A DNA stretch of 64,000 bases from Arcticibacter svalbardensis MN12-7. GTDB lineage: Bacteria > Bacteroidota > Bacteroidia > Sphingobacteriales > Sphingobacteriaceae. The position numbers were made by a program, and so were the translations under genes. Below are positions 58,808 through 63,954 of this stretch, piece by piece; position 1 is the stretch's first letter; each line of letters begins with the position of its first letter. The notes under the pieces are model-generated. The model saw nothing but the letters and a program-made list of their open reading frames with translations. It was not told the DNA's origin and made no database searches. Location: contig NZ_AQPN01000063.1 in NCBI RefSeq assembly GCF_000403135.1, positions 62,001-126,000 on the forward strand, given 5' to 3'.

Positions 58808-59704
58808 ATGGCCGATAGGCAGTCCCCATCGTTAAGTAATACCCTTAGATCAATCCTGGATTTTATTCTTTTCAGCAATATTTTTATTGCACTTTGTGCG
58901 GTTGCACAGGGCCTGGTCACCTACCACCTACTCAAGGTTAAGCCGGATCAGTATGTTTTGGCACTCTTGTTCTGCTCTACGCTCGCTTTGTATAATTTCA
59001 GTATGCTGCTGTCAAAGCCTAAACATCCATTGAAGTCATCTTTCAGACGGGTAAGGTGGATTTTCAGTCATTATAGGCTGACGGTAACGATGACAATTAT
59101 CGTAGTGGTCGCTATCGTTCCGCTTATCCTGTTTCTTTCCATGCCTTCGCTGCTATTGCTTGCATTTTTAGGGGTGGTATCGATCGCGTATAACCTTCCA
59201 CTATTCACTTTGAATGAGCATAAGTTCGGTTTAAGAAACATTCCGGGGTTGAAGCTTTTTCTAATTGCTATGATCTGGTCATTTAGCAGTGTGCTGCTTC
59301 CGATAGTGGAAAGCTCGGCAAATCAAGCTATTCATATTTCTTTAGCCTCCACGATTTTACTGGTGGGCAAACGCTTTCTTTTTGTTGCTGCGATTACGGT
59401 TCCTTTTGATATCCGCGATCTGTTTCAGGACAAACGTTATAATCTGAAGACCATTCCGGTCATGCTTGGAGAGAAAAAGGCTTACCTGTTTTGCCAATTT
59501 CTGCTCCTGACCAACATTGGCCTGCTCTTATTGTTTACGCAGCATTTTAATGCGGACTTCTTCGCCCTAACGCTAACCACTATTTTAGCAGGATGGCTGA
59601 TATTGAAATCCGGGTTCAACAAGGATGAATACTATTATTTCGGGTACCTGGATGGTACCATGCTCTTACAGTTCGTCCTTCTGGTCCTTTTTAGCCTTAT
59701 TTAA
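58808..59704 (+). CDS. UbiA-like polytopic membrane protein
   Basis: 298 residues with about eight membrane helices. A motif PFDIRDLFQDKRYNLKTIPV near residue 200 resembles the second Asp-rich motif of UbiA prenyltransferases (DxxDxxxD...T-I/L-P). The first Asp motif (NDxxD) is not evident; the matching helix reads ALYNFSMLLSK. It may be an enzyme with altered chemistry or no activity. It follows the phosphoesterase by 27 bases on the same strand. Confidence 0.72.
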   Translation: MADRQSPSLSNTLRSILDFILFSNIFIALCAVAQGLVTYHLLKVKPDQYVLALLFCSTLALYNFSMLLSKPKHPLKSSFRRVRWIFSHYRLTVTMTIIVVVAIVPLILFLSMPSLLLLAFLGVVSIAYNLPLFTLNEHKFGLRNIPGLKLFLIAMIWSFSSVLLPIVESSANQAIHISLASTILLVGKRFLFVAAITVPFDIRDLFQDKRYNLKTIPVMLGEKKAYLFCQFLLLTNIGLLLLFTQHFNADFFALTLTTILAGWLILKSGFNKDEYYYFGYLDGTMLLQFVLLVLFSLI

Positions 59705-59706
59705 GA

Positions 59707-60396
59707 CTATTCAGCCACGAAACGGTAACCAATTCCGCGTACTGTTTGCATGTAATGAGGTGTATCGGGATTGTCTTCAATCTTTTTACGCAATCTGACA
59801 ATATGCATATCCAGTGTGCGGGTGTTGACGTCGGAATTGTATCCCCATACCACCATCATCAGTTCCTCGCGTTTGATCACCTTATTCATATTCTGAAGGA
59901 AGTATAGAAGGATCCTGTTTTCCAATATAGTCAACTCTACTTTCTTTCCATTCTTTACCAGGGAATGGGTGTTTGGTGTGTGTTCCATATCGCCAAAGCG
60001 ATTCACATCTGAGTTGCCGGCGTTGACAATAAACTTGACCTTATTTTCAATCAAGGCAACCAATACATCCATATTAAACGGCTTGGTTACATAATCGGAA
60101 ACGCCAAAATGGTAAGCATCTATTTTATCTACGTCCTGTGCTTTGGCAGTCATCATGATAATGAACTTTTCGAAGCCTTCATCACGCACAATCTTACAGA
60201 TTTCAGGTCCTTGTTTACCAGGGAGCATCCAATCTAACAAGACGATATCTGGTTGTTCAGACATAATTAAGGCTTCAGCGTCTTCACCACTGGCGCATTC
60301 AACTACAGCATACCCTTCTCCCTTTAGTCGGTGTGCAACTAAAAAGCGTAGATTTTCATCATCTTCAATTACTGCAACTTTTATTTTTTTTGTCAT
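59707..60396 (-). CDS. OmpR/PhoB-family response regulator
   Basis: 229 residues. Receiver domain: acidic Glu11, Asp12, Asp13; phosphorylation site Asp55 (VLLDWMLPG); Thr83 and Lys105 (VTKPFN). C-terminal winged helix: LTILENRILLYFLQNM, REELMMVVWGYNSDVNTRTL and TVRGIGYRF. It is 3 bases after the kinase gene, so they are a pair. DNA targets are unknown. Confidence 0.95.
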   Translation of the reverse strand: MTKKIKVAVIEDDENLRFLVAHRLKGEGYAVVECASGEDAEALIMSEQPDIVLLDWMLPGKQGPEICKIVRDEGFEKFIIMMTAKAQDVDKIDAYHFGVSDYVTKPFNMDVLVALIENKVKFIVNAGNSDVNRFGDMEHTPNTHSLVKNGKKVELTILENRILLYFLQNMNKVIKREELMMVVWGYNSDVNTRTLDMHIVRLRKKIEDNPDTPHYMQTVRGIGYRFVAE

Positions 60397-60399
60397 AAT

Positions 60400-62067
60400 T
60401 TAGTTTTCAAATGGTAAAACAACAGTAAATTCGGAACCTTCACCTTGTTTACTTTTAAGGGCAATACTGCCACTCATAAAATTAACCAGTTCTTTGCAAA
60501 AAGCGAGGCCTAGCCCTACACTCCCCTGCTGATTATATCGGCTCTGTATGCGGTAGAATTTTTTAAATACATTCTCCGATTCGGCCTTTTCAATTCCTAT
60601 ACCCTGATCTATAAATTTAAAAACAATATTCCCTTTTTCAAGAAAAACCTTAATGTCAAGGACCTTTTTTTGTGGTAATGAGTATTTATAAGCATTGTCC
60701 ATCAGGTTCTGGAAAATACTCGATAGCAGTACAGGGTCCGTTTTAAAACTAGTGACCGCCCCGGTTGAATGTGTGATTTTAAAATCAGGATATTTGATCT
60801 GATAAGCGTCAACCATGTTCTGAATGAAAACCAGAAGATCTATCTTCTCTTTTTTAATGGTGATAGAGTGATTTTCTATTTGAGTGAAAGACAGCAGCTT
60901 ATTCATCAGATCATTAAGTTTGTCTGCCTCCTCATCTAATATTTTTCCATAGTGGAACCGCTCCCTGTCGGAGAGTTCTTTTGCACTTTTAATGTTGTTA
61001 CCTGCTATTTTGATAACGCTTACTGGTGTTTTAAACTCATGAGTAAGGTTGTTGATAAAATCGTACTGCAGACTGAACATTTTCCGGTTTACATTCAGAT
61101 TGCTATATATGAGATAGGCAATAAAGACCAACACACTATATACCAAAATAATAGCAAATGCTACAGGGATCAATCGATGGTTGATCTCTTTGTTAAGATG
61201 ACTTCGGGACGAGCTAAAATGGAGTTTATAATCAGCAAATGCTCCTGTTAATGGAAGATCAGTACTGAGGATATCAGGATCCGTATTCAGTGACTCATAG
61301 ACAATGGGCGTGATATGTATATATTGATAGAGTTCCTTATTTGTATTTTTAATAATCAGCTTTCCCGGATCAAGAATAAAAGACACAATATCCTGTTGAA
61401 AGACCGGGGAGAGTGCTTGTTCCTTCAGCATGAGCGCTTTGAATGTCTGCATATCCTCATCCCTTGGGATATTCATAAATGTAATGCGGTTATGCGTTAT
61501 ATGGTAGAAAATGCTGATAAAATCAGCCGACTGAAGTGGCTTTTCGGGATCTGCAGATTCAATATACAAAGCAAATTTAACAGCCATGTGGTTAAACTCT
61601 TCCATGGTTGCAGAAGCGGTGTTAGTGGGGTTTGTCCGTTGACGAGACACCACGTTACCTTGCTTATTTGGTCTATAATCATAGACAGCTTTGGGGTTCA
61701 TGGAAAAATGATTGATCCGGAAAGCTTTTTGAATCGCGTGATTACTAATTTCAGTGTCATAAAATTCAATGCCTTTTACAAAAGCATATTCATGAAATAC
61801 CGAATCGGCATACTTCAACGCGGAAGCGGAATCAAGATAACCCTGGTAAAAGGAAATTTCGGGCACTTTATTTTGAAAAAACTCATTGTAGGGTTTGAGC
61901 GTTTCTTCTAAAACATCTATTTTACGCTGGTTAAATTCATTTTCAATATACTTATCGGTTAACCGATGCGCCAGAAACATGGCCCCAATAAAGGAAATTG
62001 TAATGAGAAGCAGGAAAATAACATTTAGTGCGCTGGTACGGCGATATTGAAATCTTGCCTTAGGCAT
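60400..62067 (-). CDS. Membrane sensor histidine kinase
   Basis: 555 residues. Two membrane helices (about 15-33 and near 300-318) frame a ~270-residue periplasmic sensor domain with no recognised fold. The H-box is FINNLTHEFKTPVSV with His343; then NLMDNAYKYS (N-box), IKFIDQGIGIE-type G1 (FKFIDQGIGI) and GSVGLGLAFCKEL (G2). It phosphorylates the adjacent response regulator. The gene starts 6 bases after the S9-like lipoprotein stop, suggesting a shared signal pathway. Confidence 0.94.
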   Translation of the reverse strand: MPKARFQYRRTSALNVIFLLLITISFIGAMFLAHRLTDKYIENEFNQRKIDVLEETLKPYNEFFQNKVPEISFYQGYLDSASALKYADSVFHEYAFVKGIEFYDTEISNHAIQKAFRINHFSMNPKAVYDYRPNKQGNVVSRQRTNPTNTASATMEEFNHMAVKFALYIESADPEKPLQSADFISIFYHITHNRITFMNIPRDEDMQTFKALMLKEQALSPVFQQDIVSFILDPGKLIIKNTNKELYQYIHITPIVYESLNTDPDILSTDLPLTGAFADYKLHFSSSRSHLNKEINHRLIPVAFAIILVYSVLVFIAYLIYSNLNVNRKMFSLQYDFINNLTHEFKTPVSVIKIAGNNIKSAKELSDRERFHYGKILDEEADKLNDLMNKLLSFTQIENHSITIKKEKIDLLVFIQNMVDAYQIKYPDFKITHSTGAVTSFKTDPVLLSSIFQNLMDNAYKYSLPQKKVLDIKVFLEKGNIVFKFIDQGIGIEKAESENVFKKFYRIQSRYNQQGSVGLGLAFCKELVNFMSGSIALKSKQGEGSEFTVVLPFEN

Positions 62068-62073
62068 ATGATG

Positions 62074-63954
62074 TTATTTGTTTAAATTGTCAGATAAAAA
62101 TACTTCAAGCTGACGGTAGAAGTCCATTTGTTCTTCCAGGTTATTCAACTGGTCGTTATCTCTAACTAAATAAGTGATGGGGATCTTTCTATTCTTTAAC
62201 TCCTTAACAAACTGATTTGTTTCATTAATGTTGGCCCTGGGGTCTTTTAAATCCTGTGCAATAAATAACGGAGCGACAATTTTGTCGGTATGAAATACCG
62301 GCGAAACAGCCCTCAGGTAATCCATTTGTTGTTCCGGATTCCCTACCATCTCATAATACATTCTAAGAATGGGCTTGAAGTAAGGCGGAACAGCTTTAAT
62401 ATAAGTAAACAGGTTAACAAATCCGGCTTGAGATGCACCACAACGATACAAGTCCGGCTGGAAGCATAAACCGTGTAAGGCACTGAAACCTCCAAAACCG
62501 GTTCCATAGATCGCAACTCTATTTTTATCGGCAATTTTTTCGGTGATCAGCCATTTTACTCCTGCAGTTATATCGTCCTGAATATCACTTCCCCATTTTT
62601 GAAAGCCTGCAATCCAGAAGCTTTTACCATAACCTTTGGAGCCCCTGTAATTGGGTTGAAAGACAGCATACCCCCTATTGGCAAAGAACTGTACTTCAGA
62701 ATTAAATCCCCAAGAGGCTCTGGATGTTGGACCTCCATGTGGAATTACAATCAGGGGAAGATTTTCTGCTTTAAACCCGATTGGTAATGTCAGATATCCA
62801 TTTATAGTTCGGTTATCTTTTGCTTTAAAAGAGATGGGCTTCATTTCACACATCGCATTTAGGGGCAAAGATGGGTTAACTTCACTCAGTTTTGTTAATT
62901 TTTCTTTAGTCAGATCGTACATATAGTATGTTTCCGGAGATCTGTCGGTAAAGGTTTTAACAATAAATTTTTTCTCTGCGTCATCATTCCCTGTGATCTG
63001 AACTTCGGTATTTGGAAGGAGTTTTTCGAGATGCTGGTAGAGCTTTCGGACCGAATCATCAAGATAATAGCGCTTCTTTTTCCAGGTTTCGTAACCTGCA
63101 TAGAGGAGCCGATGATTTAATGGAGAGTACCCTGCTTCAGATACATCAACCGAATCGTTTGAATAGATCAGCTTTTCTTCTTTTCCAGTGACACAATTGA
63201 TCTCCACCAATGCCATTTTATCCCGGTGCTGATTTGATAATGCATATATAACCCCTTCATCCGAAGAAGAGAAGCCAATAGGCGCAATTTTCGTTTTAAA
63301 ACTATTTGTCACTACGGGTTTGAATGACTCTCTTTCTTTAGATCGGTAAAGCAGTGTTTCATTTACGCCATCAGTGGCCACTGCTAGTTTAATTTGTCCA
63401 TTTTCATCAGCAATCCAATGACTAATGTTGCCCGGGTTTTTTTCCGCTAGCCTGAGTTCGCCCGTCCTGATATTTAACCGATAGGCATCAAAAAAAGTGG
63501 AATCCCGCTTATTTATGGCAATTAACAATTGATTTTTTACAATCCGGTAGGGGTTAATAAACTTTAAACGAAGTTTCCCCTCTGAAAATAAGGAACGAAA
63601 CTTATCTCCCTTTTTATTGACAACATAAAGACTGGGACCATTTTCATCATTGTTTTTCAGGTAAACTATCTCATCATTATTTCCCCAGACATAATAAGAG
63701 ATGCTATAATTGAGCTCAGAACTGATACGCGTAATTTTACTACCCTCCAGTTTTTGTACATATACATTCATCTGGTTTTTATATGGTTGCAGGAAGGAAA
63801 TATATTGGCCATCAGGAGAAAGCTGGAACGCAGTCTTTTTAGGATTTTTGAAAAAATCTTCAAGAGGGATCCGCTGTGCTTTTTTATCCTGAGCACATGA
63901 TGCAAAAAGAAGCAACCACACTAAGCCATATATTATCTTTATCTTCATTCGCAT
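62074..63954 (-). CDS. S9 (prolyl oligopeptidase)-like lipoprotein lacking catalytic residues
   Basis: 626 residues. A lipoprotein signal (MRMKIKIIYGLVWLLLFASC, Cys20) precedes a seven-bladed-propeller-like region (~30-360) and an alpha/beta-hydrolase domain (~370-626; LIVIPHGGPTSRASWGFNSE, RGSKGYGKSFW). The expected nucleophile motif GxSxGG reads GTGFGG at 484-489, so Gly486 replaces Ser. Asp571 (KDPRANI) remains, but the usual C-terminal His region reads RDNDQLNNLE with no His. It is therefore a probable pseudoenzyme. It is first in a tight unit with the kinase (6-base gap) and regulator. It could bind peptides and signal, but that is inference. Confidence 0.86.
   Translation of the reverse strand: MRMKIKIIYGLVWLLLFASCAQDKKAQRIPLEDFFKNPKKTAFQLSPDGQYISFLQPYKNQMNVYVQKLEGSKITRISSELNYSISYYVWGNNDEIVYLKNNDENGPSLYVVNKKGDKFRSLFSEGKLRLKFINPYRIVKNQLLIAINKRDSTFFDAYRLNIRTGELRLAEKNPGNISHWIADENGQIKLAVATDGVNETLLYRSKERESFKPVVTNSFKTKIAPIGFSSSDEGVIYALSNQHRDKMALVEINCVTGKEEKLIYSNDSVDVSEAGYSPLNHRLLYAGYETWKKKRYYLDDSVRKLYQHLEKLLPNTEVQITGNDDAEKKFIVKTFTDRSPETYYMYDLTKEKLTKLSEVNPSLPLNAMCEMKPISFKAKDNRTINGYLTLPIGFKAENLPLIVIPHGGPTSRASWGFNSEVQFFANRGYAVFQPNYRGSKGYGKSFWIAGFQKWGSDIQDDITAGVKWLITEKIADKNRVAIYGTGFGGFSALHGLCFQPDLYRCGASQAGFVNLFTYIKAVPPYFKPILRMYYEMVGNPEQQMDYLRAVSPVFHTDKIVAPLFIAQDLKDPRANINETNQFVKELKNRKIPITYLVRDNDQLNNLEEQMDFYRQLEVFLSDNLNK

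Follow-up and report, generated by a model that had tools for sequence, protein, structure and literature searches.

A Sphingobacteriaceae operon in which an S9-family lipoprotein, mostly without its catalytic triad, precedes a two-component system

Accessory proteins of known signalling systems and the Arcticibacter operon

In the MtrAB-LpqB system of Actinobacteria, a regulator, a kinase and an accessory lipoprotein are encoded in a three-gene operon, and LpqB modulates the activity of MtrB (PMC5487470). The WalRK-YycHI system of Firmicutes has accessory membrane proteins, YycH and YycI, encoded alongside the kinase-regulator pair, and both are reported to stimulate WalK (PMC7355866). In animals, DPP10 and DPP6 are propeller-hydrolase pseudoenzymes of the S9 family that are auxiliary to a membrane signalling protein, Kv4. 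For DPP10, PMC4350108 describes a GKGYGG motif with Gly in place of Ser, an Asp and a His that are present, and an inactive protein auxiliary to Kv4 channels; fly DPP10 is described in PMC4873792 as auxiliary yet active.

The window analysed here is a stretch of 64,000 nucleotides from Arcticibacter svalbardensis MN12-7, and it contains an operon of an S9-family lipoprotein, a membrane histidine kinase and a response regulator (Table 1). The gene content resembles that of MtrAB-LpqB, but in Arcticibacter the lipoprotein gene comes first and the organism belongs to another phylum. LpqB carries a propeller domain and Pfam includes LpqB models; the LpqB family was absent among the 11 Pfam families that matched the S9 lipoprotein at E ≤ 1. 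YycH and YycI differ from the Arcticibacter protein in that, to our knowledge, they lack the S9 fold. DPP10 and DPP6 differ in being S9B type II membrane proteins with an ion channel as partner, and they are an independent case that serves as an analogy only. The Arcticibacter module was not reported in the open-access PMC literature searched.

All three genes lie on the minus strand, with 6 bp between lipoprotein and kinase and 3 bp between kinase and regulator, and these ORF coordinates agree with the gaps given in an earlier reading of the window (the sequence-only reading). Pfam assigned HisKA and HATPase_c to the kinase and Response_reg and Trans_reg_C to the regulator. After the regulator lies a convergent UbiA-like gene (window positions 58808-59704; 30.2 bits against a Pfam cut-off of 34.2). 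Upstream of the operon, a TPR protein is transcribed divergently (L262:236-2206, plus strand); judged by eye, 17 of the 20 upstream stretches compared have it in that position, the exceptions being L274, L279 and L281.

Table 1. Features of the operon in window coordinates
Feature	Position	Strand	Basis
S9-family lipoprotein (pseudo-peptidase), 626 aa	62074..63954	-	ORF, Pfam, 5l8s alignment, model, PDB match
Signal peptide with lipobox Cys20 (LLLFASC)	63895..63954	-	Cys in 115/115 linked sequences with the region
N-terminal beta-propeller, residues ~37-360	62875..63846	-	Model strand pattern; limits approximate
C-terminal alpha/beta-hydrolase domain, residues ~372-624	62083..62841	-	Pfam Peptidase_S9 and model; limits approximate
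Nucleophile elbow GTGFGG, Gly486 for Ser	62488..62505	-	5l8s alignment and homologue alignments
Retained catalytic Asp571	62242..62244	-	Asp in 114/116 linked sequences
Former catalytic-His loop, His lost	62131..62169	-	Homologue alignments
Membrane histidine kinase, 555 aa, phospho-acceptor His343	60400..62067	-	ORF, Pfam, conserved kinase core
Kinase periplasmic sensor domain, residues ~35-300	61168..61965	-	By eye and model; no significant profile match
OmpR/PhoB-type response regulator, 229 aa, phospho-acceptor Asp55	59707..60396	-	Pfam; Asp in 119/119

By fold and homology the lipoprotein belongs to peptidase family S9. A Pfam Peptidase_S9 match covers residues 415-601 (E 6.9e-36; 124.2 bits against a cut-off of 22.6), and the predicted model (mean pLDDT 89.6, pTM 0.87) combines strands arranged much like a propeller with an alpha/beta region after them. 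S9 enzymes matched this model over its length; the best PDB match was the acylaminoacyl peptidase 5l8s (TM 0.77 on the query), whose fold is similar along the full length of the lipoprotein. When the two are aligned, GTGFGG falls on GGSYGG, the Asp is retained in KDPR, and NDQL lies near the position of GHGF. The alignment and the model thus bear out the sequence-only reading, which had Gly486 replacing Ser in GTGFGG, a C-terminal region lacking His, and a retained Asp571 and hydrolase fold. The Ser-Asp-His triad of an active S9 peptidase is reduced in the window protein to Asp571.

The kinase consists of a transmembrane helix, a periplasmic domain, a second helix, HisKA and the ATPase domain, with no HAMP match; the extent of the periplasmic domain, set by eye and from the model, agrees with the ~270 residues proposed earlier. 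Kinase residues H343, E344, N454, N458, D487, G489, G491, G518 and G520 and regulator residue D55 were invariant in 119 of 119 sequences, and the phosphotransfer and ATP-binding residues of a HisKA two-component system are thus intact. The periplasmic domain had been called unassigned, and it indeed matched nothing significantly in Pfam or NCBIfam and no sequence in the PDB; nor did it give a significant Pfam match, Cache and PAS included, in any of 18 members. PDB searches with the whole kinase model returned matches filled by the kinase core that hardly extended to the sensor part. The top Foldseek match, the integrative WalK-YycH model 9a5d (rmsd 44.5), appears in our reading to be driven by this core as well. 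Membership of PorXY, RprXY or PhoRB was rejected, the NCBIfam scores falling far under the cut-offs (PorY 82.6 of 350 bits, PhoR (Bacteroidota) 102 of 500, RprY 123.6 of 370, PhoB (Bacteroidota) 128.7 of 270).

In genome searches that score first-look candidates, and may therefore miss remote kin, a profile of the sensor domain matched 10 of 295 genomes of the class at E ≤ 1e-3, all of them Sphingobacteriaceae; among the 20 listed of the 285 genomes with no match, none belongs to that family. Within a sample of the order the profile matched 120 of 121 genomes, all Sphingobacteriaceae. The same searches found the whole kinase (10 of 295) and the regulator (5 of 149) to be equally restricted to the family, at stricter cut-offs.

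Linkage of the lipoprotein to one kinase across the family

The genome family used for counting was taken to be Sphingobacteriaceae, and an S9 match at E ≤ 1e-120 was present in 381 of 399 genomes drawn from it. Kinase loci from 113 family genomes (window included) were compared, and in 107 the immediate upstream neighbour of the kinase is the S9 gene, whole or in part, a figure that overstates blind linkage because most of the 113 loci were chosen for their S9 match. Ninety-nine of the 107 adjacent genes are full-length; two are broken, one is shrunken, one starts late and four are truncated where a contig stops. Six loci depart from the pattern: S9 is missing at five from a single genus with reduced genomes (L162-L166), and the sixth (L172) begins at the edge of its contig. 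The gap between S9 and kinase has a median of 6 bp, with 118 of 123 gaps no longer than 30 bp. The sequence-only reading had staked its proposal of a sensory module on a conserved kinase link, and the link proved to be conserved, with one kinase-regulator pair family-wide.

A further sample of 62 genomes was selected to contain all 18 family genomes without a strong S9 match. Here, S9 (E ≤ 1e-40) was found in 51 genomes and the kinase in 51 of these 51, while the kinase was single-copy in each of the 57 genomes that bear it. Four of the five genomes without the kinase are 71-83% complete, and the fifth (G091) lacks both genes at a listed completeness of 100%. Because S9 never occurred without the kinase in these 62 chosen genomes and the kinase did occur without S9, dependence looks one-way, with S9 relying on the kinase but the kinase not on S9. 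The genomes of L162-L166, at 1.3-2.0 Mb, keep kinase and regulator, and a TPR gene is next upstream.

Among the best 80 named loci listed for the S9 profile, 18 have the kinase adjoining and the other 62 are unlinked. The top named record is Arcticibacter eurypsychrophilus (95%), and the unlinked relatives in this list, at 41-48% identity, come from other Bacteroidota and from records of other phyla. The wider neighbourhood of the operon is also largely syntenic across the family, and since the flanking genes are largely common, a recently moved module is disfavoured.

Several individual loci deserve mention. In L168 and L169, which are single-contig genomes, the S9 frame is broken beside an intact kinase, and an assembly error is possible. 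A shrunken lipoprotein of 503 aa (L167:3298-4809) still precedes its kinase. The module also occurs in a record titled 'Flavobacteriaceae bacterium PS02338' (L086), which clusters with Pedobacter-titled records and may be mistitled.

Repeated loss of catalytic residues

From 197 S9 entries (196 loci and the window), nine were removed as fragments or broken (L049, L050, L168, L169, L171, L173, L174, L175, L176) and three as duplicates (L082, L085, L214). This left 116 linked and 69 unlinked sequences, where unlinked means that no close homologue of this kinase lies within 500 bp downstream; the unlinked loci L111 and L135 end less than 200 bp downstream of S9, so that their neighbours are out of view.

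At the nucleophile position the 116 linked proteins have Gly in 83, Ser in 28, Arg in three (L100, L188 and L183), Asn in one and Glu in one. Ser has thus been lost in 88 and His in 82 (kept in 34), and Asp571 is kept in 114. In contrast, all 69 unlinked proteins retain Ser and Asp, and 68 of the 69 retain His. Both Ser and His are lost in 80 linked proteins and both kept in 26, while eight keep only His and two keep only Ser, from which it follows that Ser tends to be lost first. The broken triad of the window protein is therefore the state of most linked homologues. Conservation of Gly486 and of the missing His, raised by the sequence-only reading, holds for the majority and fails for the 26 that keep both residues; in the same way its term 'dead' suits most linked proteins but describes no fixed state, given these 26 and the genus without S9 at the locus. 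That reading had also allowed that homologues might mostly keep Ser and His, making the change a local mutation. The opposite was found, and local mutation or sequencing error was rejected because the Ser loss is shared by the five other genomes of the genus as well as by most linked homologues.

Three trees were built, all excluding the columns around the catalytic residues: the first with 14 of the 69 unlinked sequences, the second with 6 of 69 and without L181, and the third with all 185. In the third tree the 116 linked proteins form one clade (support 100) with no unlinked member inside. The fewest changes required at Ser were 12, 12 and 13 on the three trees, and those at His were 9, 8 and 8, the 9 including a change in an unlinked row. 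Counting losses only, the second tree gave 19 for Ser and 8 for His, or 13 and 6 when weak branches were collapsed. Judged from these trees, Gly486 is the most frequent outcome of a loss that recurred in parallel; it did not arise in one event, and it does not hold throughout the family.

Some unlinked loci have features of their own. The triad-bearing lipoprotein gene at L120:4980-9697 has a TPR-PAS-HisKA kinase 116 bp downstream, with an unrelated sensor part, and at L123 another regulator-kinase pair lies about 700 bp beyond the S9 gene; both may be chance neighbours. At L049:4991-8296 (genome G033) an open frame of 434 aa, judged by eye to resemble a transposase, interrupts an S9 paralogue whose Ser and His motifs are intact in its second half.

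Columns were compared between 113 linked sequences (without L181, L167 and L170) and 64 unlinked ones (without L046, L047, L048, L051 and L052). Fifty-nine columns are at least 95% identical in linked and unlinked alike, and these include His406, Asp571 and glycines 484, 488 and 489. A different set of 43 columns is at least 95% conserved in the 64 unlinked proteins and below 70% in the 79 dead linked proteins. Of these drifted columns 14 precede residue 360 and so belong to the propeller; many of the others, with closeness judged along the sequence, stand beside catalytic motifs (407, 483, 490, 509-513, 525-526, 568-574, 601-608). Y487F, T492A and S450G mark nearly the whole linked clade, and V510S is changed in 96% of the linked proteins that bear Ser and His. 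Gly568, Glu601 and Phe603 are 96-100% conserved in the 25 of these 26 Ser/His-bearing proteins that were examined.

The ratio of propeller to hydrolase distance was 1.46 in dead proteins, 1.55 in Ser/His-bearing linked proteins and 1.78 in unlinked ones, and the hydrolase domain is somewhat relaxed in linked compared with unlinked S9. Within the dead proteins the mean p-distance of the hydrolase domain was nonetheless lower than that of the propeller (0.413 versus 0.603). Taken as a whole, the S9 protein looks like a retained scaffold whose active site has been partly released.

The lipid anchor appears to be retained as well. A lipobox cysteine identifies a bacterial lipoprotein, and the window protein has both a predicted signal peptide and Cys20; the cysteine occurs in every linked sequence that covers the region, the remaining row (L170) starting late. 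Acidic residues after this cysteine act as a surface-export signal in Bacteroidota, and with only 0-2 of them in the first five positions of linked S9 proteins such a signal is not evident. Our guess from these residues is that the lipoprotein sits in the outer membrane and faces the periplasm.

Possible roles of the lipoprotein

The operon is conserved, the linked proteins form a single clade, their catalytic residues were lost repeatedly, and the phosphotransfer residues of kinase and regulator are intact. We think it probable that the S9 protein is a periplasmic accessory subunit of this kinase for which catalysis is dispensable, and the three genes would then likely constitute a three-component signalling operon of Sphingobacteriaceae. 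By analogy with the systems described above, an accessory lipoprotein that modulates the kinase would be the simplest reading, because S9 depends on the kinase in the genomes sampled, both would meet in the periplasm, and the kinase core is complete. Linkage argues for an accessory subunit, as do the tracking of linkage by catalytic loss and the constraint on Asp571, the lipobox cysteine and the 59 shared columns. According to this proposal, a widespread enzyme of the unlinked type would have been captured once, ahead of a kinase-regulator pair that had its own sensor domain, and would have become a lipid-anchored subunit, most likely touching that domain. The subunit would set the balance between kinase and phosphatase activity, in a direction that, like the signal and the target genes, belongs to the presumptive part of the proposal. 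Ser and His were lost many times, presumably because the accessory role does not need enzyme activity, while fold, lipid anchor and operon position were retained.

Several observations weigh against an accessory subunit, among them the null covariation results, the kinase that persists without S9 in one genus, the selection of loci for S9, the somewhat relaxed hydrolase domain, and an adjacency that plain co-regulation would fit. The rates of propeller and sensor domain covaried in 54 pairs (partial r 0.47, p 5e-4), a test whose 100 pairings are not a bootstrap since the pairing is fixed by the tree. In the 20-pair subset of loci with a complete TPR neighbour as control gene, the same test was not significant (r 0.10 uncontrolled, 0.15 once all controls were included), and the signal was already gone before the TPR control was added. 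Mutual information between S9 and the sensor domain showed no excess over S9-regulator pairs (effective 61 sequences). This mixture, positive in 54 pairs and null in the 20-pair and residue tests, is also compatible with S9 as an output of the system or a co-regulated envelope protein, with its own non-catalytic job and no contact with the kinase; adjacency alone is no proof of contact, and the wider locus is largely syntenic too. The one-way dependence in the 62 chosen genomes and the short gap, which suggests translational coupling, make such a bystander rather unlikely. It is also somewhat doubtful, if a little less so, that the lineages with Ser and His are still peptidases whose product or substrate is the signal, and that the dead lineages changed their input. 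Those 26 of 116 proteins, the near-invariance of Gly568, Glu601 and Phe603 in the 25 examined, and the fly DPP10 described in PMC4873792 as both auxiliary subunit and active peptidase speak for it, but the same lineages differ from unlinked S9 at Y487F, T492A and V510S, and the losses are scattered over the S9 tree.

The sequence-only reading had proposed a peptide-binding co-sensor. The co-sensor role fits the data, which do not support peptide binding in the former active site. A receptor that captures peptides there and hands them on to the kinase would account for the retained fold, for the Ser and His of 26 linked proteins and for the conservation of His406, Asp571 and the elbow glycines, but many of the 43 columns that drifted in the dead proteins adjoin the motifs along the sequence. 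We therefore regard this receptor as unlikely, and doubt that holding a peptide in the old catalytic site is what the linked proteins have in common. Simple decay of the gene, with loss of Ser and His as steps towards a pseudogene, would agree with the broken frames of L168 and L169, the shrunken L167, the late-starting L170, the absence in one genus and the relatively greater variability of the hydrolase domain in linked proteins. Set against the 99 full-length genes among 107, the conserved Asp571, lipobox cysteine and 59 columns, and a hydrolase domain that in dead proteins varies less than the propeller, decay seems highly improbable, and conservation disfavours the pseudogene reading.

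For the accessory subunit that we prefer, we favour a signal of envelope state rather than a peptide, given how much of the active-site region has lost its conservation. A bolder form, which we advance tentatively, is a family-wide module in which a membrane-anchored pseudo-peptidase would act as the receptor for a kinase, as one of its subunits, and the periplasmic fold of the kinase would be new. It could report the state of the envelope, such as how lipoproteins are sorted or how far apart the two membranes lie. Such a module might, by a similarly tentative analogy, be a bacterial counterpart of DPP10-Kv4 with many intermediate stages between an enzyme and a pure signalling subunit.

The family offers a natural series in which the triad is intact, half lost or lost and the gene shrunken or absent, running in parallel lineages beside a constant kinase, and it shows how an enzyme may become a signalling subunit. 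Nearly every sampled Sphingobacteriaceae genome has this two-component system with its orphan sensor domain, and genes annotated as 'S9 peptidase' at this locus should be read with caution, since most lack the triad.

The genus without S9 also allowed the sensor domain to be viewed apart from the lipoprotein. Its ratio of sensor to kinase rate (2.26-2.32) falls inside the range of S9-bearing genomes (1.62-2.66), and no relaxation is therefore seen. The kinases of L162-L166 deviate at the conserved sensor positions F64, E70, Y74, D79, S80, R202, K281 and E294, which are candidate sites of contact with S9.
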